Assembly (NCBI RefSeq): GCF_032362555.1
Contig: NC_083530.1
Location: 1,270,001 to 1,334,000, forward strand
Length of the DNA: 64,000 nucleotides
Source of the DNA: Amyelois transitella
Lineage: Eukaryota > Arthropoda > Insecta > Lepidoptera > Pyralidae
Reading direction: 5' to 3'
Position numbers and translations under genes: made by a program
In this document: piece by piece, positions 2,850 to 57,100 of the stretch
How positions within the stretch are numbered: the first letter of the stretch is position 1
How the letters are laid out: every line of letters begins with the position of its first letter
The notes under the pieces: generated by a model
Database searches by the model: none
Told to the model about the DNA's origin: nothing
What the model saw: only the letters and a program-made list of their open reading frames with translations

Positions 2850-7241
<4,392 letters not shown>

Positions 7242-34200: not shown

Positions 34201-36895
34201 GTACATAACAGGTTTTTTTAATATATTTTTTTTAATACTCTACTATTTGGACTCGCCCAAATAATGTGTTATGTACATAGTTATATCTCAGGCATTTTTT
34301 TGTTTATTCACGCGATTACGAGTATTTTACCAATGTTTTAATTGATTAGAAACTAAATTAATAAATTACTAAAACAAACAAATTAGTCATCATGCCTATT
34401 CCGTCATTTAAGCGATTTGCTGAACGTGGTCTGTTCAAGACCGTTGACTCTGTCTGCCCCGCAAGGGATATAGACGTGACCATAGAATAGAATAGATTTA
34501 TTTTCAAAATTGGATACAAGGTATCACTTTTTGACGTCACATAACTTAAATCTAATTATAACTACTACGCGCTTCCAAAGCGGACGAAGAAGCGGCGGAA
34601 CAAACTACACTGCATTTTCACCGGACGTCAATTTACAAATATAGATCTCTTAAATCTAAATCGTGGACGAATGCACATATTGTCTACATTGAGAAAACAT
34701 GAATGAATGTAGATCCAATATGTATGTATGTATGTATGTATGTATTAATTGTTTGTAACTCCCCCAGGGTAGGTCGCCATCCCCACTCCCTGTTCCGGCA
34801 AAAAAACGCGGCCCGGGTCGTCCTAGAAAGGTAAGTTTGTAGTTATTTTAGTGCCGTGTGGTTCCCGGCACCAATAGAAAAAAAGTATAGGACCACTTCA
34901 TCTCTTCTTTCCCATGGATGTCGTAAAAGGCGAATAAGGGATAAGCTTATACACTTGGGATTATTCTTTTGAGGCGATTGGCTAGCAACCTGTCACTATT
35001 TGAAGCTCAATTCTATCTTAAAGCCAAATAGCTGAGCGTGGCCTATCGGTCTTTTCAAGACTGTTGGCTCTGTCTACCCCGCAAGGGATATAGACGTGAT
35101 TATATGATTACATAGTATATGTATGCTTTTAAAAGTTCCGAAAGGCACTGTCCGACCCGTAAGGGATAAATACATGTTATTTGTGAAAGTGTTCCATTTA
35201 CTCGAGTACAAAATAAAGTAATTATTAATTAATATTGTTGACGGCCTGTGTGGCGCAGCGGTAGTGCGCTAGTCTGTGACACCGGAGGTCCCGGGTTCGA
35301 ATCTCGGCCAGGGCATGATGAGAAACGAACTTTTTCTGATTGGCCTGGGTCTTGGATGTTTATCTATATAAGTAGATATTAATTATAAAAATATAATATC
35401 GTTAAGTTAGTATCTCGTAACACAAGTCTCGAACTCACTTCGAGGCCAACTCAATCTGTGTAATTTGTCCCGTATATATTTATATTGCTATCTCATTCAT
35501 CAACAGATCCGTCTCCCCCCATCGGATTCAGACGAGGAACAGGCGGCGAAGAAACGGCCGAAATTGAAGGTGGCGCCGATAGAGCCTCTCTCGGAGATGG
35601 ACGACATTTTAACCAGCGTCAGCAGAGTCGATCAATTGTCAACACCGTTGTTTATGAAGGTAAGCATACATCCTACTACTATTATAAAGGCGAAAGTTTG
35701 TATGGATGTATGGATGTTTGTTACTCTTTCACGCAAAAACTACTGACCCGATTACCATGAAATTTGGTATGTAGGTAGCTGAAGACCCAGAATAACACAT
35801 AGGCTACTTTTTATCCCAGAGTTCCCGCGGGATTGATAGGGTTTCCATGCGGACGAAGTCGCGGGCGGCCTCTAGTACATATATACATATGGTCGCGTCC
35901 ATATCCCTTGCGGGGTAGACAGAGCCAACAGTCTTGAAAAGACTGATAGGCCACGTTCAGCTGTTTGGCTTAATGATAGAATTGAGATTCAAATAGTGAC
36001 AGGTTGCTGGCCCATCGCCTAAAAATAAGAATCCCAAGTTTGTAAGCCTATCCCTTAGTCGCCTTTTACGACATCCATGGGAAAGAGATGGAGTGGTCCT
36101 ATTCTTTTTTGGTATTGGTCCCGGGAACCACACGGCATGAAGATAAGATTAACTTGAATCTTCTCAGCCGCCTGAGCGCTGATCAGATAACAGATACCCA
36201 TTAATGCTACTCTTTCTATGTCAACAAATGTCCAATATACCCAATTATGGAAATTTTTGCTAACTAAACACATCTATATTAATATTAAAAAGCTGAAGAG
36301 TTTGTTTGTTTGTTTGAACGCGCTAATCTCAGGAACGACGGACGGGTTCGAATTGAAAAATTATTTTTGTGTTGAATAGACCATTTATCGAGGAAGGCTT
36401 AAGGCTATATAACATCACGCTGCAACTATTAGGAGCGAAGAAATAATGGAAAATGTGAAAAAAACGGGGGAAAATTATTCATCCTTGAGGGCTTCAATGA
36501 TGCACAAATTAACTATTCCACGCGGACCAAGTCGCAGAATTCCATCGACCTAAAACTCATTATAATCAAATCAAAATTTAAATTCATTATTATGGTAAAT
36601 TTTGAACGTCAATAAATTATGTTCACATCTTTTGGTTTCACAACATTGATTGACGTCGAATAAATAAATTTAGTATATAATAAATTACATTAAACTAAGT
36701 TTAGTGCCGTTTCCAAAGCGATATTGCTGAAGGAGCGGCAACAAACTGCACTGCAGCACGCGCACTTTCATTGACCTGTCATTACGTTGATTCCAGGTGT
36801 ACAATCTCAGCCGTTCAGTGCCTTCTAAACCCACACGGCTCGCCGACGCAATGGAGGAAACCGTATCGTTGGATCCTAAAACACAACCTTGTTAA
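15461..36895 (+). CDS. MADF-BESS domain protein with AT-hook, six exons, 406 aa
   Basis: Exons are 15461-15656, 32229-32385, 32964-33516, 34768-34830, 35507-35659 and 36797-36895 (stop TAA 36893-36895). Phases agree throughout. The MADF domain covers residues about 16-118 (VQKRPCLFDTNHPNY, KDVQKRWRSIRDSY, FLLNAL) and spans the first intron. A BESS-type motif lies at about 205-245 (DDDKLFMNSLVPFF). Exon 4 is a self-contained AT-hook (KKRGPGRPRK). Basic clusters RTTRKRK and KKRPKLK may be nuclear localisation signals, and IKIE is a possible SUMO site. MADF-BESS proteins of the Adf-1/Stwl kind bind DNA and interact through BESS, so this is a probable chromatin or transcription regulator. The orthologue was not identified. 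A polyA signal AATAAA lies at 36937-36942. The first intron is 16.6 kb. Confidence 0.88.
17205..17447 (-). repeat. Helitron-like 1 copy
   Basis: GGGCATCATTGAAGCCCTCA through ATTATAATATTAGTATACAT. The terminal CGCGGACGAAGT hairpin end is missing. Confidence 0.8.
17620..17866 (-). repeat. family A repeat, 5' head missing
   Basis: (CATA)n, GGTCACGTCCAAATCCCCTG, then the body to TCTTATTTGTATTGGTGC. Confidence 0.85.
19310..19470 (+). repeat. Helitron-like 3 copy
   Basis: TCTGTTAGTCTGTATGCTTA, CGCAACGGATTTTGATGCGG and the end GCACCCGTGCGAAGCCGGGG..GCTAGT. Matches 31965-32165 in reverse. Confidence 0.8.
19482..19756. repeat. two family A fragments in opposite orientation
   Basis: A plus-strand 3' half at 19482-19612 is followed by a minus-strand 5' half at 19629-19756 (to GGGAACCACACGGCAC). 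Head-on arrangement within the MADF intron. Confidence 0.8.
19965..20110 (+). repeat. LINE-3' fragment
   Basis: AGTTATGAATGTGGATGAAG through CTCCGGGAAAGAGGCGTGAT plus (ATGT)n. Confidence 0.85.
20800..20976 (-). repeat. tRNA-SINE-1, 5'-truncated
   Basis: Complement of the SINE tail and body (ATATACGGGACAAATCACAC .. AAAGTTCGTTTCTCATAATG). The tRNA-like head is absent. Confidence 0.8.
21470..21536 (+). promoter_or_regulatory. possible alternative first exon in the MADF intron
   Basis: A GC-rich stretch in AT-rich surroundings ends in GGACGCAC followed by GTAAGTAT, a near-perfect splice donor. It has no long reading frame, so if real it would be a 5' UTR or noncoding exon. Single-site evidence only. 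Confidence 0.25.
22905..23000 (+). repeat. family B fragment
   Basis: CAACATCATTGGTTGACTTC and ACTGCCGCTTCCAAAACGTC. The 3' end is missing. Confidence 0.7.
23336..23622. repeat. (TA)n microsatellite with duplicated 78-bp spacer
   Basis: (TA)n tracts at about 23336-23380 and 23456-23544. The unit from AACATATAAACGTAACGTAA to TCAATTATTGTATGTGAGTA occurs after each tract with no differences seen, so the tract-plus-spacer was duplicated in tandem recently. Confidence 0.9.
23801..24050 (+). repeat. family A repeat
   Basis: GCCGTGTGGTTACCGGCACT head through GGGATATAGACGTAACCATA and ATGTATGT. Confidence 0.85.
24790..25015 (-). repeat. Helitron-like 2 copy
   Basis: CTAGAGGCCGCCCGCGACTTCG at the left is the complement of the family 3' end. 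It ends TTTCGCATTTATTATATTAG. Confidence 0.85.
25141..25246. repeat. (TA)n tract ending in a palindrome
   Basis: (TA)n at 25143-25194, then TAAACAGTTAA (25195-25205), a second (TA)n, and TTAACTGTTTA (25234-25244). The arms are exact complements around an AT loop, so a cruciform or hairpin is possible. Confidence 0.85.
25290..25600 (-). mobile_element. LINE-3' fragment, ~310 bp
   Basis: (CATA)n, ATCACGCCCTTTTTCCCGGA, then GATCAAGATACGTTCGTCTA and CCAAACCATCTTAACATACC, which align with the coding part of the 9097 copy in reverse. Confidence 0.85.
25855..26111 (-). mobile_element. family A insertion with 9-11 bp target-site duplication
   Basis: Flanked by CTAAATAAT at 25846-25854 and again at 26112-26120, extendable to GCTAAATAATA. 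This defines the unit as about 257 bp, from the GCCGTGTGG head to the (ATGT) tail, and shows it is a real mobile element. The interrupted host sequence is rich in GGCATA/TATGCC motifs and looks like a decayed transposon too. Confidence 0.9.
26497..26735 (+). repeat. family B copy flanked by ~37-bp direct repeats
   Basis: The body TATAGGATACTTCATATCGC .. GCACTGCAGCATTTTCTTCA is flanked by nearly identical copies of ATGGAATTCGATTTTGTTAT (26442 and 26742) plus the following TGTGCC.. sequence. Confidence 0.8.
26880..27030 (+). repeat. tRNA-SINE-2, 3' part
   Basis: GACGGGAGTCGCTTCGTGTT, CCCGGGCTCCTCTCCCAGAG and GTGAGGATGCAACCGGGACT. Confidence 0.8.
27112..27370 (+). repeat. family A repeat, full length
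   Basis: GTGCCGTGTGGTTCCCGGCAC head to GACGTGATTATATGTATGTA. Confidence 0.9.
27540..27787 (-). repeat. family A repeat, diverged
   Basis: Body recognisable (GAATAGTGACAGGTTGCTAG, TTAGTCGCCTTTTACGATTT). Both ends are degraded. Confidence 0.75.
27985..28255 (+). repeat. Helitron-like 1 copy
   Basis: TCTATACTAATATTATAAAG to GCGGACGAAGTCGCAGGCAC and AGCTAGT. The next element starts immediately. Confidence 0.9.
28256..28490 (+). repeat. Helitron-like 4 copy
   Basis: TTATATATAAAATTCTCGTG, CGAAACGGCTTGACCGATTC and the end GTTTGCCGGGACAGCTAGTT. Abuts the preceding Helitron-like element end to end. Confidence 0.75.
28496..28690 (-). repeat. family A repeat, internally deleted
   Basis: ATAATCACGTCTACATCCCT, then the body to TTGGTGCCGGGAACGGTACA. 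The central part is shortened. Confidence 0.75.
28869..29116 (-). repeat. family A repeat, full length
   Basis: (CATA)n/GGTCACGTCTATATCACTTG to GGCGCCGGGAACCACACGGC. Confidence 0.85.
29228..29272 (+). repeat. LINE-3' terminal fragment
   Basis: Only AGGGAAAGAGGCGTGATTTT plus (ATGT)n is present. Confidence 0.75.
29676..29890 (+). repeat. family A repeat, head missing
   Basis: ATCTCTTTCCCGTGGATGTC through AATACAGACGTGATTATAGA. Confidence 0.8.
31320..31605 (+). repeat. Helitron-like 1 copy
   Basis: TCTATACTATACTAAATATT, AAAGCTGAAGAGTTTGTTTG and ACGAAGTCGCGGACACAGCT. Confidence 0.85.
31650..31712 (+). repeat. tRNA-SINE-2 head fragment
   Basis: GAGCGTCGCTCGTTGGCTGA and GGTAAGGTTTGCGGTTAAAA resemble the 5' tRNA-like part of the 50583 copy. 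Confidence 0.55.
31717..31945 (-). repeat. family A repeat
   Basis: ATCATGTCCATATCCCTTGC to GGAGTGATCCTATTCTTTCT. The head is truncated. Confidence 0.85.
31965..32165 (-). repeat. Helitron-like 3 copy
   Basis: ACTAGCGACCCGCCCCGGCT, CACGGGTGCAAAATTCGG and AATCCGTTGCGTAATTTTAA. Ends 60 bp upstream of MADF exon 2; a short duplicate of its first 12 bases lies just to the left. Confidence 0.8.
32402..32745 (-). repeat. family A fragment plus full-length copy in tandem
   Basis: A 3' fragment at 32402-32470 is followed by a near-complete copy at 32509-32745. Both are minus and both start with ACATATGTACAT-type tails, within MADF intron 2. Confidence 0.8.
33598..33872 (+). repeat. Helitron-like 1 copy
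   Basis: TCTATACCAATATTATAAAG to GCGGACGAAGTTACGGGCAC and AGCTAG, in MADF intron 3. Confidence 0.85.
34488..34670 (+). repeat. family B copy
   Basis: AGATTTATTTTCAAAATTGG through CACTGCATTTTCACCGGACG. Preceded by a family A 3' fragment at 34400-34486. Confidence 0.7.
34850..35107 (+). repeat. family A repeat, full length
   Basis: GTGCCGTGTGGTTCCCGGCA to GACGTGATTATATGATTACA. Begins 19 bases after the MADF exon 4 donor. Confidence 0.9.
35243..35485 (+). repeat. tRNA-SINE-1, full length
   Basis: A box GTGGCGCAGCGGTAGTGCG, B box GGTTCGAATCTC, tail TTTGTCCCGTATATATTTAT. It ends about 20 bases before the MADF exon 5 acceptor. Confidence 0.9.
35672..35877 (+). repeat. Helitron-like 2 copy, young
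   Basis: Starts 12 bases after the MADF exon 5 donor and ends GTCGCGGGCGGCCTCTAGT. Differs from 11664 and 63730 mainly by one extra GTATGGAT unit. Confidence 0.9.
35880..36136 (-). repeat. family A repeat, full length
   Basis: ATATGGTCGCGTCCATATCC to CCCGGGAACCACACGGCA. Abuts the Helitron-like copy. Confidence 0.9.
36270..36540 (+). repeat. Helitron-like 1 copy
   Basis: TCTATATTAATATTAAAAAG to CACGCGGACCAAGTCGCAGA. The terminal CTAG is lost. Confidence 0.8.
36600..36778 (+). repeat. family B copy
   Basis: TTTTGGTTTCACAACATTGA, GTGCCGTTTCCAAAGCG and ACTGCACTGCAGCACG. Ends about 20 bases before the last MADF exon. Confidence 0.75.
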
Positions 36896-43282: not shown

Positions 43283-46200
43283 ATGGGAAAACCAGGTGAG
43301 TTGACTTCCTAACTTATTCCGAGCACATTGATGCCGCATGTCTTTTTTCTGTTATTACTATTATATGTGATTATTTATTGAATTAATCTGGTGCCATTTG
43401 ATTATATTTTGAGGACCGAAATTTATTCAGTACTATTTAAAAATACTCTTTATTTTTCGTCCACGTTTCACGCGAGAGGTTATGTTTGCATTTGAAACTA
43501 GCTTATTTCTAAGTACTTAGGTATCATTGGCTGAATTTGAAATCATGGTTTTGTTATTAATTTAAGTCAAATTTATTAAGAAATAGCCACTTCTTTCCGC
43601 TAGAAACACTTGGAAGTATAATTTAGAGGTTATGTTTTATTGCACGTACTCCCCAAGCTTCCTTGTCCCCCACGTGGTCCTAATCATTACTTCTTTGCTT
43701 ACGATTTTGGATTAACGCATTTGCTTTTCCTTTAGTTGCCTTTACGACAACCGTGCCAAAAAATCATAGGTATTTAAAGTGCTTGAAACCACTTGCATTT
43801 TAGGAAAACTAAAGTCTTTTCAAAATATAAATGAAATAAAATTTATATGTTGAAAAGATTATTTATCTACTTTATTAACCCACAAGTTTTTCCACAGATT
43901 TCAACGGCGGAGGTCGCGGAGGCGGCGGCGGTAGAGGCGGAGGACGAGGCGGCGGCCGTGGAGGCGGACGGGGGGGATTTGGAGGAGGTAATAAAGATGT
44001 TTTCCAAGCAGGCATCCATTTGTTACAGTTCATTCACATGTCAATGGTTGTCCTTAATTTTTAATATGTGCGTTATTGTTATATTTATCATGAATACATA
44101 AGCAGTTTAAAGCTGATGCGTGTATATTATATTACTACCACCGCTTTACCGCCGTGTGTATAAACGTGTTGCTAGTCGACCTTGTTCCAAATATGAATTT
44201 TTAATTTGTTTTTTTTTTTTTACTTCACTCTGAATTTAATAAAATGACAGTCCTCTCTGTGTCAAAATCCGCCAAAATACTCTAAATTTATTCATTACCA
44301 GTAACAATAGCAATTTGTGTTTGAAATTATCATATTTTATTGTTAAAAGGCGGAGGCCGAGGAGGTTTCGGCGGCGGCCGAGGCGGAGCCGGCGGCGGCA
44401 AGTTTGAGAAGCGCGGGGGCGGAGGCCGGGGCTTCGGCGGACGCGGGGGCGGCGGTAAGTTGTACATCTCTACAATGTAATGTGTATAGTTGTTTTTCAT
44501 GGTGTAATCTGTAACTTAGGGTTCTGTACGTACTTAAAGACAGAAAGAAAGCTAGAAAGTCATGTTTATATCCCTTTAAGGACAGAGCCAAGAGTCTTAA
44601 AAAGACTAAAAGGCCATGTTTAACTGTATGACTCGGATCATATATGTATTTTGGTACCTCAGCGGATTTAATTGTATGGCGTAACTTTAATGAGTTTACT
44701 ACATTTATATGAACAGCTCTTTAGATTGGCCACTTTCTTCCAGTCAAAATTTAAAATCATGATTCTTTTATAGGTAGCTAATAATAATTTTTTTGTAACC
44801 TGAAAGAAATATTTTTTTAATCTTAAAATTCAAATTCTTCATGATCTTTATAATATCTTACCTACATGTTGCGTACAGAACCCATGGTGATAGAAACCGA
44901 CTCGCACATTACCGTTTTAATTTGACCTTCAAATGATGAGAACATGGTCCCTCTAATCTCGACCTATTCATGAAGACTATGATACCACATACCCACTACT
45001 GAATATACATGAAAATCTATCGATTTTGATCAAGTTGATTGTTTGTATTATAAATTCAGTTATTTTTTGTAAGGTCGCGGCAGGGGAGGACCTCCAAAAA
45101 GGGGAGGTTTCAAGGGAGGAAAGCAAGTTATCATTGAACCACACAGGTTAGTGAAATCTATACTAATATTATAAAGCTGAAGAGTTTGTTTGTTTGAACG
45201 CGCTCATCTCAGGAACTACGGGTTCGAATCAAAAATTATTTTTATGTTGACATACATACATACATAAAATCACACCTCTTTCCCGGAGGGGTATTTTGTG
45301 TTGAATAGACCATTTATTGAGGAAGCTTCAGGCTATATAACATCACGCTGCAACTATTAAGAGCGAAGAAATAATGGAAAATGTGAAAAAACAGGGAAAA
45401 TTATTCGTCCTTCAATGATGCCAAAAACAACTATTCTACGCGAACGAAGTCGAGGGCACAGCTAGTTATTTATAAAAGTTTTTTTTGAGTGAATCAAAAT
45501 TGTTTTCAGTTTATTTGATTGAAAAATTATTATTCACATGATGTTATTAAAATAACTTTCGTTCTTCTGAAAGCGAACAGCTTGAAGCCACTTTAATTTT
45601 ACTGATAAATATCTTTGTATGCACAAATAACTAAACAATTTTCCATGAATTCTGTCTTGACCATAGTCTTATTTCGCAGGCACGCTGGTGTTTTTATAGC
45701 TAGGGGCAAAGAAGACGCATTGGTTACAAAGAATTTGGTGCCTGGTTCAGAAGTTTACGGTGAAAAGCGGATATCTGTTGAGGTTTGTTTAATTTATTAA
45801 TATTTAGAAAAATATTAATAGTAGCTGTAAATGAAAATTTAAATATTAAAAGTGTTATTGACTTGTTGGTTTGGCTCAAGTTTTTATACAAACTCCTCGT
45901 TCACTTTCCTTTAATATTGTTAATCATGAACATGATGACTAGATATTAAGGTTTTCATTCAGTCAGATCAAAATTAAGGGAATTGGGTCTGTCCATATGA
46001 CATTTGTTTATATTTAATGTTACAACAAACGTGACAACAGATCAGAAAATAAAAAAAATTAACATATAAAAAGAACATGAAAGAAGGATGTTCCACTTAG
46101 GACGGCGTAGACGAAGCCCAACATCTCGAAAAGACTGGGATACCTCATTCACCTTAATGATGGAATTATTTTTTGGAATAAGAAAGTTATTTTATAAAAC

Positions 46201-49200
46201 CTTGAGCATAAAATGAATTTTAACATTTTAAATCGCCACTACAAAATGATGACAATATGGTCCCTCTAATCTGGACCTATCCATGAAGACCATAACCACA
46301 TACCCACTTCTGATTGGCCACAGCTAAAAAAAAAACTTTCGAAACCATAGACATAAACACCATTAACCATAGACAATATTTTCAGAACGAAGGCGAGAAA
46401 GTGGAGTACAGAGTATGGAATCCATTCCGGTCCAAATTGGCCGCCGCTATCATGGGCGGAGTGGACGCTATACACATGCCTCCCGGTTCCAGGGTCCTGT
46501 ATTTGGGGGCTGCCAGCGGTACCACAGTTAGTCATGTTTCGGATATTGTTGGGCCGGTGAGTTTGACTTAATTACTAGCGAGTCACATATGTTATATAGG
46601 TTAACTAAGCAGATATACAAGGAGAGTGTGTAGGGAAAGGTCGGAGTGGGAAGACCTAGACGAACGTATCTTGATTAAATTAAGGACGTCCTGGTAAAGG
46701 GTCAGGTCAAAAGTACCCGAAACCGCCGAGCTTGCATGAAGAGAGTTGTGTGGGGATGAAATAAAGGAAGTGTGCAGAGATCGTGGCAAGTGGAAAGAGG
46801 TAGTCTCTGCCTACCCCTCTGGGAAAGAGGCGTGATTTTATGTATGTATGAGTCACATATGTATACCATTTTTTAAAGCCAGCCAAATTCAGGGTCTGTG
46901 TTTTATGACACAAGTCTTCAACAGCTTTCATTTTTAATCTCTTGCCACAGTGTATGTAATTCTAGAAGACTACCTCTGTGGCGTTGCGGTAGTACGCTTG
47001 TCTGTGACACCAGAGGTCCCGGGTTTCGAATACCGGTCAGGGCATGATGAGAAAAGAACTTTTTCTGATTGGCCTGTATCTTGGATGTTTATCTATATAA
47101 TTTTTTATAATAAAATATAGTATCGTTGAGTTAGTATCTCGTAACACAAGTCCTGAACTTACTTCGAGACTAACTTGATCTGTGTAATTTGTCCTGTATA
47201 TAAAAAAAATCTGAACGTGGCCTATCAGTCTTTTCAAGACTGTTGGCTTTGTCTACCCCGCATGGGATATAGACGTGACTATATGCAACTATTTAATATT
47301 AATACAAACATATGATGACAAAAAATGGGTGCTTATAAAACCGTGAAGCCCACACAAATTCACTACCTTTCCGTTCTGACAAACCCAAAATCCCACGACA
47401 CATTGTATTTTCAATGAAAACATATTAAAACTTAATAATAATGTCACACAGGAGGGTCTGGTGTACGCAGTGGAGTTCTCGCACAGATCCGGACGAGATC
47501 TGATAAATGTTGCCAAGAAAAGGACAAATATTATACCGATTATTGAAGATGCAAGGCATCCATTGAAATACAGGTGAGTTTTTACCAGTGACTTTGTCTA
47601 GAAATAATTTTTTTTAAGACTTTACCTACATATAAATTTATTACTCCTGGCTGTTCAAAGTTTCGAAAGACTTTGTAGATATTGTGTCAAGAAGAGACAG
47701 AAATTTTAAGAACACTAATTTCCGTGTTTTTAATATTAGTTTGAATTACTGGGGTTTAAATCGAAAAGTTGGGACCAGGGCAGTTGTTCAATTTGAAATG
47801 ACTGAATATTTGAAAATTGGTTATAGGAGAAAAACACTACAGATTTGTATTAATTGTTATGGATAAAGAATTTTTAGTCAAGGAGGTCATACAGTAAGGT
47901 TTACCTGCATAGGTTGCGGAGGTCAGATGGTAGTCGCTTTGTGTAAAAGCCTAACTCACCCAATCCAAGGTCTATGGCATACCCCGGGCTCCTCTCCAGA
48001 GTCGAGGAGTTCAGACAATAGTCATTTATTTACCTGACTTTCCACTTCTCAATTGCGGGCACAACACTAAAAGCACAATCAATTATGAGCTCTTACAGAT
48101 GTGGATTCTAATGATGAAGAACCTATGAACTAAATTATACATGTCGAAATACAATTTGAACTCTCTCTCTGAATTCCACACACAATTTGCATCACATTCT
48201 CTATACAAACCAAGCTTAATATATACACATATAATTACAGAATGCTAGTCGGCATGGTAGATACAATTTTCGCTGATGTAGCCCAACCGGACCAAGCGAG
48301 AATCGTGAGTTTGAACGCTCAACATTTTTTGAAGAACGGCGGACATTTTGTGATATCAATTAAGGTGAGATTTTTTCTAAATACATTTTTATCTCTCATA
48401 TAGGGGTTAAACATACAATACAACAGATTAAAAATGGGTTAGGTTCCCTTGTAGAGATTCAGTCAATCAGTTTTGTGTAAAAACCGGATTTACCCAATTC
48501 AGGATCTTGGTTAAAGGAATACCCCGGGCTCCTCTTTAGAGTGTGATCACTGTGTGAGCTCTCTCACTCAGAGCGCCAGGAAGAATAAGAAGACAATAGT
48601 CACGAGATTCAAAAGTCATTTTTCGCTGAATGCCTTAATTATTTAAATTATATTGTGAAGTTGACGTTGTTGAAGAAAATGCTGCAGTGCAGTTGGTTAC
48701 CGCTTCTTCTGCACTGACGCCTTGGAAGCGGCAGTAAACTTAGTTTTTAAGTAATTTATTTGACGTCAACCAATGTTAAACCATACGACAATTATTAAGC
48801 GATATATAGTATCCTATAATAATGAATAAAAATTTTGAATTTGAATTTGAATTTTTGAAAATTCTTGTATTGACAGTTTGCTAGCTCCAATGCCAAAGTT
48901 TACAAGCATATCCTTGATTGACTTTTACGATCTGCGCGAGAAGGGAAGCAGCTCGCGACAAGAATCGCAATCTTATAAGTAGCATACCTTATCTATCCTA
49001 TAAACGTACCCTTCAAAATGGGGTCAATTTCTCCTATGATGAAGAAAAAAAGCTAAATTTTTCATGTTGAAATTCGAACTCTCTCACTGAGGTCTCGAAA
49101 TCATAACCTCTCTTACCCTCCAAAATTAAAACTAAACTAACCATAGACAACGCTTCCAGGCCTCATGCATAGATTCAACGGCGCAACCGGAAGCTGTATT

Positions 49201-49327
49201 CGCTGCGGAAGTGAAGAAATTACAAGCTGACAAATTGAAACCGCAGGAACAACTCACATTGGAGCCCTACGAAAGGGATCACGCGGTAGTGGTGGGGGTT
49301 TTCAGACCGCCTCCGAAGAAAGCATAG
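43283..49327 (+). CDS. Fib: fibrillarin (box C/D snoRNP 2'-O-methyltransferase), nine exons, 322 aa
   Basis: Exons are 43283-43295, 43898-43987, 44350-44454, 45074-45146, 45680-45782, 46386-46556, 47452-47573, 48241-48364 and 49160-49327 (stop TAG 49325-49327); phases are consistent. Exon 1 codes only MGKP plus one base. Residues 5 to about 85 form a Gly/Arg-rich (GAR) domain spread over exons 2-4, broken by a short KFEKR segment. The methyltransferase follows: [20 protein letters not shown], then SAM motif [12 protein letters not shown] (165-175), then [14 protein letters not shown] and [12 protein letters not shown]. Length and order match animal fibrillarin. It is the catalytic subunit guided by box C/D snoRNAs to methylate rRNA in the nucleolus. 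Introns 3, 5, 7 and 8 carry strong snoRNA candidates, so gene expression and guide supply are probably coupled. Confidence 0.97.
44563..44640 (-). repeat. family A 3' fragment in fibrillarin intron 3
   Basis: TTTATATCCCTTTAAGGACA and the AGTCTTAAAAAGACT hairpin. Diverged. Confidence 0.65.
44928..45007 (+). ncRNA. box C/D snoRNA candidate A1 (fibrillarin intron 3)
   Basis: Box C ATGATGA at 44933-44939, box C' ATGAAGA near 44970, box D CTGA at 44999-45002. The guide upstream of D' includes GGTCCCTCTAA, complementary to the 18S rRNA segment TTAGAGGGAC (recalled). A paralogue with the same guide lies in intron 5. The terminal stem is weak. D is about 72 bases before the exon 4 acceptor, the usual spacing for intronic snoRNAs. 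Confidence 0.75.
45160..45470 (+). repeat. Helitron-like 1 copy with nested LINE-3' tail
   Basis: TCTATACTAATATTATAAAG to GAACGAAGTCGAGGGCACAG and CTAGTT, in fibrillarin intron 4. At 45250-45297 a minus LINE tail (ATCACACCTCTTTCCCGGAG) interrupts the element near a TTTTGTGTTGA / TTTTATGTTGA repeat. Confidence 0.85.
46243..46320 (+). ncRNA. box C/D snoRNA candidate A2 (fibrillarin intron 5)
   Basis: Box C ATGATGA at 46246-46252, D' CTGG at 46271-46274, C' ATGAAGA near 46283, box D CTGA at 46310-46313. The guide GGTCCCTCTAAT precedes D'. The fifth base from D' (C46266) would pair with the G of 18S TTAG, predicting a 2'-O-methyl G. Box D is 72 bases upstream of the exon 6 acceptor. Paralogue of A1: the segments between boxes are nearly identical. 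Confidence 0.8.
46590..46850 (+). mobile_element. LINE-3' fragment in fibrillarin intron 6
   Basis: GGTTAACTAAGCAGATATAC, GGGAAGACCTAGACGAACGT and GGGAAAGAGGCGTGATTTTA plus ATGT units. The sequence GAGTCACATATGT-like flank appears on both sides (about 46578 and 46850), a plausible target-site duplication. Confidence 0.85.
46970..47205 (+). repeat. tRNA-SINE-1, full length
   Basis: CCTCTGTGGCGTTGCGGTAG (A box) and CCGGGTTTCGAATACCGG (B box with one extra T). The tail GTAATTTGTCCTGTATAT is followed by a family A 3' fragment at 47208-47285. Confidence 0.85.
47305..47383 (+). ncRNA. possible box C/D snoRNA C (fibrillarin intron 6)
   Basis: Box C ATGATGA at 47312-47318, C'-like GTGAAGC near 47343, box D CTGA at 47376-47379, 73 bases before the exon 7 acceptor. 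The spacing equals that of A1 and A2. The guide upstream of D, CACTACCTTTCCGTT, has no rRNA target I can name, and no clear terminal stem is seen. Confidence 0.5.
47920..48015 (+). repeat. tRNA-SINE-2 fragment
   Basis: GGTTGCGGAGGTCAGATGGT and CATACCCCGGGCTCCTCTCC. Confidence 0.75.
48099..48180 (+). ncRNA. box C/D snoRNA candidate B1 (fibrillarin intron 7)
   Basis: Terminal stem GTGGA (48101-48105) with TCCAC (48175-48179). Box C ATGATGA 48111-48117 and box D CTGA 48169-48172. The guide directly upstream of D, TTGAACTCTCTCT, is complementary to AGAGAGAGTTCAA, recalled from the 5' domain of 28S rRNA. The base five upstream of D pairs with an A, predicting 2'-O-methyl A. Box D is 68 bases before the exon 8 acceptor. 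Confidence 0.85.
48455..48600 (+). repeat. tRNA-SINE-2 fragment in fibrillarin intron 8
   Basis: AAAAACCGGATTTACCCAAT, AATACCCCGGGCTCCTCTTT. Diverged. Confidence 0.7.
48640..48850 (-). repeat. family B copy
   Basis: Complement of the family: GAAAATGCTGCAGTGCAGTT, CTGACGCCTTGGAAGCGGC, TAGTATCCTATAATAATGAA. Confidence 0.8.
49028..49098 (+). ncRNA. box C/D snoRNA candidate B2 (fibrillarin intron 8)
   Basis: Box C ATGATGA 49036-49042, box D CTGA 49087-49090, 69 bases before the exon 9 acceptor. The guide CGAACTCTCTCA shares the B1 target core GAGAGAGTTC in the same register relative to D, so the same A would be methylated. Sequence between the boxes is clearly related to B1. The terminal stem is weaker than in B1. 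Confidence 0.8.
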
Positions 49328-54100: not shown

Positions 54101-57100
54101 CGTTACACTAAACCGATTTAGATGCTTCCAATTAAATGTTTTTAACACTTAGGAGAAGGTTTTAATAATTTAACCGACTTCAAAAAAGGAGGACATCGAT
54201 TGGTCTGGAGGCGGTTCTCATGTTATTTTAAAAAAAATATTTTTCACATATGACTAACCCTTCTTTTTTTCAAATTTCTTCTGTTATGTATATATATGAT
54301 TAATAAATAAAATAAATAAATAAATAATAATAAATATATACGGGACAAATTACACAGATTGAGTTAACCTCGAAGTAAGTTCGAAACTTGTGTCACGAGA
54401 TACTAACTCAACAATACTATATTTACAATAAATACTATATTTATAATAGATAAAGATCCAAGACCCAGGACAATCAGAGAAAGTTCGTTTCTCATCATGC
54501 CCTGGCCGGGATTCGAACCCGGGACCTCCGGTGTCACAGACAAGCGTACTACCGCTGCGCCACAGAGGCCGTCGAATATATAAAAAAATAACTCACTCTT
54601 TGTCCTTTGAATGTAACCCTTGCATCAGTAGCTTCGTAAGGTTCTGGTTGACAGCGGCTTTACTTCTGCTTTTTGGGTCCAACGCTAAGTTTTCTAGACG
54701 GGCCTCCATCGGCACTTCTATCTGTAAAACAAAATAAACAAACATACATTATAATCACGTCTATATACATTGCGGGGCAGACAGAGCCTACAGTCCTAAA
54801 AAAGACTGAACTCGTTAGCTGTACGGAATTAATATTCAATTAGTGACAGGTTGTTAGCCACTCCCACTCGCGTCTGACCTCCGCCACCTTTGCAGGGGAA
54901 CCTTACCCGTATTGGATCGATCATGCTCACACATCCAGCTACTTGAATGTGCAGGTTTCACAATAAGAGCATCGGTTAGTATTCAAATGCACATAACTTC
55001 TCAAATAGTCATTGGCCGAGTTGGGATTCGAACCTGCGCCTGCGCATCACGCACCAGGCACCTTACTAATTAGACCACCGACGCTCACACATACATACAT
55101 ACATACATAAAATCACGCCTCTTTCCCGGAGGGGTAGGCAGAGACTACCTCTTTCCACTTGCCACGATCGCTGCATACTTCCTTCGCTTCATCCACATTC
55201 ATAACTCTCTTCATGCAAGCTCGGCGGTTTCGGCTACTTTTGACCGACCAACGCTCATGACAGTGGAAATAACAGTTTTTAACACAACTGACCTGCCCAC
55301 CGGAAGCGCTCCGCTTCCTCCCCACCACCCCCCCCATAGGCTCCACGTACGTCACGCTGTCGTCTTGTTTCAACTTGTTCTCAATCGTGCTGCTCCTTCT
55401 ATTCTTCTTAACGCTATCACCGCGTATGAGAACTTGCGTTTTAGATTTTAATTCTGGCGTCTGTGAAAAAAAAGATGTATGTAATACTGAATAGAGGAAA
55501 TGTAATCACTATACATACAACATACATACATACCAAATAATCACATAACAAATAATCACATACCAAATAATCACGTCTACATGTCTTGAGGGGTAGACAG
55601 AGCCGATAGTCTGGAAAAGACTGAAAGGCCACGTTCTGCTGTATGGCTTCATGATGGAATTGAGAATCATATAATGACAGTTTGCTAGCCCATCACCTAC
55701 AAGAGGCCTATCCCTTAGTCATCTTTAACGACACCCATGGGAAAGACAGTTGCAGTGTGATGTTATATAGCCTAAAGCCTTTCTCGATAAACAGTCTATT
55801 CAACGCAAAAATAATTCTTCAATTCGAACCAGCAGTTCCTGAGATAAGCACGTTCAAACAAACAAACAAACTCTTCATCTTTAAAATATTAGTATAAATA
55901 CATGTAAAACTTACGATTCTCTCAAAAGTTGTCACCGTTCCGTTGCTATATCCGATTAGGATGTCCGAGTTAAGCACTTTACAGCATTGGAGCGGCAAGG
56001 GATGGGCGGCCGGCGACGTCACTTGTATAGTGACCGACGGTTTTAATGGCTTCGCTGACGCCCTGCAAAGGAAAATGTCAAGTTTGTTTATTTATCAAAA
56101 CAACAAGGTATAAATTACATACATACATACATAAAATCACGCCTCTTTCCCGGAGGGGTAGGCAGAGACTACCTCTTTCCACTTGCCACGATCTCTGCAT
56201 ACTTCCTTCGCTTCATCCACATTCATAACTCTCTTCATACAAGCTCGGCGGTTTCGGGTACTTTTGACCTGACCCTTTACCAGGACAAAAGGTATAAATT
56301 ATTGTTATCAAACATAACTTATATTGTTGTAATGTTGCTAACGTTTTCTAAATTTTCAAGTTCCGTGTTCCATGACAACCAACCACGGATGACACGACAA
56401 CCACTCCCATGTATTTAACATGGATGTCGTAAAAGGCGACTAAGGGATAGACTTATAAAATTGGGATTCTTCTTTTAGACGATGGGCTAGCAACCCGTCA
56501 CTATTTGAATCTCAATTCTATCATTAAGCCAAACAGCTGAACATGGCCTATCAGTCTTTTCAAGACTGTTGGCTCTGTCTACCCCGTAAGGGATAAAGAC
56601 GTGATCATATGTATGTATGTATGTAGGTATAAATTATTGTTATCAAACATAACTTATATTGATTTATAATACTACTAGCATTTCTAAATTTCCAAGTTTT
56701 GTGTTGTGTGGTTACTGGCACTTAAGAATAGAACCACTTCATATATTTACCATGGATGTCGTAAAAGGCAACTAAGGGATAGAATAATAAATTTGCAATT
56801 CTTTTTGTAGGCGATGGGCTAGCAACCTGTCAACTATTTGAATCTCAATTCCATCACGTAGCCGTTGACTAAGGGATAGGCTAATAAACTTGCATTTCTT
56901 TTTGTAGGTGATGGGCTAGCAACCTGTCAACTATTTGAATCTCAATTCCATCATGAAGCCATACAGCTCAAGGTGGCCTTTCATTCTCCCAAGACCTGTT
57001 GGCTCTGTCTACCCCGCCAGAGGCCTCAGAAGATGATTTTGAAGAATGCAATTTCTTATACAAGACAAGGTGTGCCCGCGACTACGTCGGCGTGGAATAG

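Follow-up and report, generated by a model that had tools for sequence, protein, structure and literature searches.

The fibrillarin gene of Amyelois transitella as a very probable host of six intronic box C/D guide RNAs

The stretch of DNA analyzed here comprises 64,000 nucleotides (nt) of the lepidopteran Amyelois transitella (RefSeq assembly GCF_032362555.1, contig NC_083530.1, forward-strand positions 1,270,001 to 1,334,000), and is referred to below as the window. On its forward strand, at 43283-49327, lies the gene for fibrillarin, the enzyme that uses box C/D guide RNAs. Its spliced frame is open and yields a product of 322 amino acids (aa), which carries a glycine/arginine-rich start and a methyltransferase domain, and which matches human FBL (7mq8_SC) across residues 3-320 (E 4e-148). 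Nine coding exons (43283-43295, 43898-43987, 44350-44454, 45074-45146, 45680-45782, 46386-46556, 47452-47573, 48241-48364, and 49160-49327) are separated by eight introns, and all five Pfam fibrillarin matches in the 327-Mb assembly fall within this gene. The gene is also very probably a host of intronic box C/D small nucleolar RNAs (snoRNAs), with one predicted guide in each of introns 3 to 8.

An earlier reading of this locus, made from the letters alone (the sequence-only reading), had described units consisting of box C ATGATGA and box D CTGA in introns 3, 5, 7, and 8, as well as a weaker unit in intron 6, with box D placed some 70 nt before the 3' splice site. Both the boxes and the spacing are borne out in these five introns, where the start of box C precedes the start of box D by 51-66 nt and where box D ends 68-72 nt before the 3' splice site. 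The units, all on the forward strand, lie in intron 3 at 44933-45002 (box C 44933, box D 44999, 71 nt before the splice site), in intron 5 at 46246-46313 (46246, 46310, 72 nt), in intron 6 at 47312-47379 (47312, 47376, 72 nt), in intron 7 at 48111-48172 (48111, 48169, 68 nt), and in intron 8 at 49036-49090 (49036, 49087, 69 nt). The description of the intron 6 unit as weaker does not hold, since both boxes match exactly and the guide forms a 15-bp duplex with 18S ribosomal RNA (rRNA). A sixth unit, absent from the sequence-only reading, was found in intron 4 upon relaxation of box C by one base (45538-45605, forward strand; box C ATGATGT at 45538, box D' CTGA at 45567, box D at 45602, 74 nt before the splice site). 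In units of 55-70 nt, the RTGATGA/CTGA pair is exact in five cases and carries one box C mismatch in intron 4, while the distance to the 3' splice site stays within 68-74 nt in all six.

This arrangement was compared with 2000 dinucleotide shuffles of the eight introns, using a gap range of 44-63 that was picked around the observed values. A strict unit appeared in a mean of 0.053 introns per shuffle (maximum 2) versus five observed, and the mean fell to 0.002 introns (maximum 1), again versus five, when the end of box D was required to fall 60-80 nt ahead of the 3' splice site. Introns 1 and 2 contain no C/D unit with at most one box C mismatch and a CTGA 40-130 nt before the splice site, and additional ATGATGA motifs at 45932 (intron 5) and 47044 (intron 6) are not followed by a suitably spaced box D. 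The latter motif lies within a stretch of intron 6 (46960-47060) that resembles, by eye, a short interspersed element derived from transfer RNA (tRNA).

Potential targets were sought in the genome's own ribosomal DNA (rDNA; loci L011 and L012), in which 18S and 5.8S were placed by Rfam; because Rfam listed no 28S match, 28S was equated with the region following 5.8S in which the 28S core pattern occurs. All six units have a guide of at least 10 bp upstream of box D or D'. The guide of intron 4 (45553-45566) forms 14 Watson-Crick pairs with 18S 1042-1055 in a duplex that ends directly at a perfect D' box, and that of intron 6 (47360-47374) forms 13 Watson-Crick and 2 G-U pairs with 18S 475-489, stopping one nucleotide short of box D. 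The intron 7 guide (48156-48168) makes 13 pairs with 28S (L011 4961-4973) and ends directly at box D, and the intron 8 guide (49076-49085) makes 10 pairs at the same 28S place and in the same register, thus pointing to the same nucleotide. In introns 3 and 5, guides at 44946-44956 and 46259-46269 form 11 pairs each with 18S 1486-1496, before a degenerate D'; a further guide precedes box D in both introns (approximately 44983-44997, and 46295-46308), where a duplex with one bulge and at least 13 pairs is formed with 18S from 1331 (1331-1343 for intron 5). The four ungapped target sequences are identical in the second rDNA copy. The 28S core sequence itself has two exact copies in the assembly (L011 on contig C30 and L012 on contig C26), one of which lies approximately 3.95 Mb from the fibrillarin gene on the same contig; the rDNA arrays have probably been collapsed in the assembly.

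The methylated nucleotide is expected to be the one that pairs with the fifth position upstream of box D or D', a rule described in PMC13228274. Applied to these duplexes, it predicts that the intron 4 guide would direct 2'-O-methylation of 18S A1046, that the intron 6 guide would direct that of 18S G478, and that introns 7 and 8 would both serve one 28S A within GAAGAGAGAGUUC (L011 4965). The D' guides of introns 3 and 5 would act on 18S A1488 or G1489, according to whether TCGA/TGGA or CTCG/CTGG is taken as the D' box, and their box D guides probably on 18S G1334.

The strength of these pairings can be judged against the remainder of the window, in which 12 C-to-D units are found on the two strands, six in fibrillarin introns and six outside the gene. 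The longest guide duplexes among the 12 units (14, 13, 13, 11, and 10 Watson-Crick pairs) all belong to fibrillarin introns; outside the gene, the six units have 9, 8, 7, 7, 7, and 5 pairs. The intron 3 unit has 7 in this comparison, its D' having been left unscored on account of two mismatches. A guide of 10 pairs is attained at 20 of the 366 other CTGA sites that the window contains, one of 11 pairs at 4, one of 13 at 1, and one of 14 at none. When duplex energies were compared with those of 150 shuffled guides, as low a value was obtained by 0 shuffles for the box D guide of intron 6, 1 for that of intron 7, 0 for that of intron 5, 4 for that of intron 3, and 6 for that of intron 8, and by 1, 2, and 1 for the D' guides of introns 4, 3, and 5, respectively. 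Taken singly, the tests for intron 8 and for the D' guides of introns 3 and 5 (11 pairs, a length seen at 4 of the 366 sites) are of moderate strength; what strengthens them is that the guide is shared by the two members of each pair. A second target for the box D guide of intron 4 (18S 820-830, 10 pairs) was rejected, since 10 pairs are reached by 20 of the 366 sites and the most stable duplex, equalled in energy by 3 of 150 shuffles, is not adjacent to box D. Also set aside were the 9-10 bp matches to 18S near 1797 made by TGAAGCC stretches in introns 4 and 6; no D box follows them.

Four of the units form two duplicate pairs. Identity between the boxes of introns 3 and 5 is 61/68, as opposed to 47/95 in the flanks (Fisher p 4e-8), and introns 7 and 8 form a more diverged pair, with 46/55 between the boxes versus 49/90 in the flanks (Fisher p 3e-4); these values refer to aligned columns, with 2 and 7 gap columns between the boxes and 19 and 19 in the flanks, respectively. 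The units are more alike than their flanks, so the introns have diverged around units that were retained. A second, diverged repeat is common to introns 7 and 8 upstream of the units (47938-48002 and 48472-48542; 78% over 36 nt and 82% over 34 nt), which suggests an older duplication or a dispersed element.

Copies elsewhere in the genome were sought in two ways. The intron 3 unit, searched together with its flanks, matched two places, introns 3 and 5. The intron 7 unit matched only itself; since intron 8 was missed, diverged copies are beyond the range of this kind of search. The guide patterns were searched as well: that of intron 4 has a single exact match in the assembly, in the fibrillarin gene, and 19 matches at up to two mismatches versus 29 for a reversed-pattern control, with box C/D context, judged by eye at the eight loci given, in the window's own locus only. 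The pattern of introns 7 and 8 has two exact matches, in those introns, and three one-mismatch matches, all of which lack a box C core in the preceding 75 nt; that of intron 6 matches only itself at up to one mismatch. By these patterns, the guides of introns 4, 6, 7, and 8 have no exact copy outside the gene, and diverged backup guides could possibly exist.

Further indications of identity come from Rfam at permissive thresholds. The intron 4 unit aligns to SNORD59 (RF00273) over the whole model (39.1 bits, E 1e-5), with box C, the guide ACTTTCGTTCTT, D' CTGA, TGAAGCCA, and box D in register, the difference lying in a longer D'-C' spacer and in a score below gathering. The intron 7 unit aligns weakly to SNORD81 (RF00136; 20.6 bits, E 4.5, with a gathering score of 50) in a manner that holds the same guide and box D as predicted from rRNA; the likeness resides in the TTGAACTCTCTC guide adjoining box D, and the remainder of the RNA has no convincing alignment. 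We take human SNORD59 to guide 18S A1031 and human SNORD81 to guide 28S A391/A400. For intron 8, no SNORD81 match was listed and SNORD29 (E 6.1) is at chance level, as is snR67 for intron 5 (E 2.7), and introns 3 and 6 gave no match at these thresholds. Matches in introns 1 and 2 (snR83, E 6.1; snoR11, E 6) lie on the opposite strand at chance level and were discarded, no other H/ACA search having been made. In viral contigs, five stretches with the SNORD59 core showed no box C/D context by eye. The intron 4 unit, which may be called SNORD59-like, is the best case among the six.

The proposal of the sequence-only reading that these introns encode box C/D guides is well supported by rRNA guides in register, the SNORD59 alignment, paralogue conservation, and spacing. 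Guide RNAs located approximately 70 nt before the 3' splice site would, after splicing and debranching, be bound by box C/D proteins, fibrillarin included, which would protect each unit as exonucleases trimmed the remaining intron, leaving guides of approximately 60-80 nt. Gene, boxes, spacing, complementarity, and paralogue conservation are observed directly at the locus; expression, processing, and actual methylation are what we infer.

Several observations weigh against this interpretation. At gathering thresholds, Rfam reports three tRNA matches in the window and no C/D unit reaches a gathering score, including intron 4, whose 39.1 bits fall below the cut-off of 45 and allow it to be called SNORD59-like only. 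The degenerate D' of introns 3 and 5 renders the methylated nucleotide uncertain, their box D guides pair only with a bulge (the ungapped 7 and 8 pairs are at chance level), and the ungapped 10 pairs of intron 8 are equalled by 20 of the 366 other CTGA sites. Compared with shuffled flanks, the terminal stem is notable in intron 7, where 55 of 2000 shuffles did as well, borderline in intron 5 (134 of 2000), and unremarkable in introns 3, 4, 6, and 8 (1072, 1868, 863, and 613, respectively), and the minimum free energy folding z-scores of the units, from -1.05 to 0.25, are uninformative. Finally, the evidence consists of the sequence of one species.

Three alternative explanations were considered. 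ATGATGA and CTGA are short, and six units do occur in the window outside the gene, so that motifs arising by chance in AT-rich introns could be invoked; in view of the shuffles, the CTGA null, the ranking of units, and the SNORD59 E value of 1e-5, such an origin is extremely improbable. The units could also be decayed snoRNA pseudogenes, spread by retroposition or duplication and no longer processed, a notion in keeping with the two duplicate pairs, the Rfam scores under cut-off, and the weak terminal stems in four of six units. It is nevertheless very unlikely, as boxes and guides have been kept while flanks diverged, the 68-74 nt spacing is kept in six of six units, and the guides of introns 4, 6, 7, and 8 have no exact copy outside the gene that could be the possible working gene.

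A last alternative places the role of the units in the gene's own control: as cis sensors within autoregulatory introns, they would be bound by abundant fibrillarin and its partners on its own pre-mRNA, shifting splicing or stability. A precedent exists in a sister core-protein gene, human NOP56, which hosts SNORD86, a box C/D RNA acting in cis on splicing, according to portions of PMC11028025 and PMC10324135, and the presence of six units within one core-protein gene is in line with such a function. SNORD86, however, is described as an orphan (PMC11028025), whereas the fibrillarin units bear rRNA guides, as trans-acting guides should, and the nine fibrillarin-intron guides tested display no complementarity to their own pre-mRNA above that of shuffles. 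The cis-sensor explanation is therefore unlikely, although cis sensing and trans guiding could coexist.

Whether hosting extends to related genes was addressed with stretches of 7500, 9000, and 8500 bases around Nop58, presumed Nop56, and Prp31, respectively, outside of which parts of the genes may lie. Locus L036 is clearly Nop58 by its Nop domain and L035 is Prp31, and L034 is presumed to be Nop56, from a 54-aa piece that matches Nop58 and Nop56 alike. Rfam detects no snoRNA in the three stretches at E values of 1 or below. On both strands, five C-to-D units were found, with a best box D guide of 10 pairs and at most 8 for the others; the best unit (box C ATGATGT) lies on the minus strand of L036, antisense to the gene. 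Since the Nop58 and presumed Nop56 stretches lack comparable units, hosting is not general for core-protein genes here. With regard to tRNA, the three Rfam matches in the window (6257-6328, 33.9 bits; 35244-35315, 42.7 bits; 54498-54569, 36.5 bits) and a further one in the presumed Nop56 locus (L034 5853-5924, 45.6 bits) may represent repeats that derive from tRNAs instead of actual tRNA genes.

The delivery of enzyme and guides by one transcript, as put forward in the sequence-only reading, would follow from the anatomy of the gene if the introns are processed. Stoichiometric coupling or feedback, suggested in the same reading, is at this stage inference only; feedback is possible by analogy with NOP56/SNORD86, but the units resemble trans-acting guides. 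The more ambitious view, that the fibrillarin transcript is the genome's sole guide source for several rRNA methylation sites and that assembly on its own introns feeds back on splicing, with the supply of enzyme and of guides set jointly by one gene, is unlikely.

Hosting of a guide by fibrillarin has a counterpart in plants: Barneche et al. (2000, J Biol Chem) reportedly found that Arabidopsis fibrillarin genes host a novel C/D snoRNA, said to be called U60. In both systems a fibrillarin gene encodes protein and rRNA-methylation guide, the difference being one novel guide there, by the title of that report, and six units in six introns of an animal gene here. In human NOP56, as described in those portions of the two articles, a core-protein gene likewise houses a C/D RNA, SNORD86, within an intron, but this RNA is an orphan that acts in cis on splicing, whereas rRNA guides with no evidence of cis action are found here. 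Drosophila snoRNAs also lie within introns of host genes, namely Uhg1-8, lola, Arpc2, dom, and ribosomal protein genes, and fibrillarin is not named among the hosts in the passages of PMC13228274 considered here. In a literature search of partial coverage, no match beyond plants was found for fibrillarin introns as guide hosts, and none of the matches listed for Lepidoptera with snoRNA, fibrillarin, or host genes mentions Lepidoptera; given this coverage, novelty for Lepidoptera cannot be claimed firmly.

That fibrillarin can host a C/D guide is already established in Arabidopsis, and the present gene provides a rich animal example, in a genome whose Nop58 and presumed Nop56 stretches have none. 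With six guides and at least four predicted sites, it offers a one-gene test of the regulatory consequence of an enzyme gene hosting its guides, one made cleaner by introns 4, 6, 7, and 8, for which no exact-guide backup was found outside the gene.

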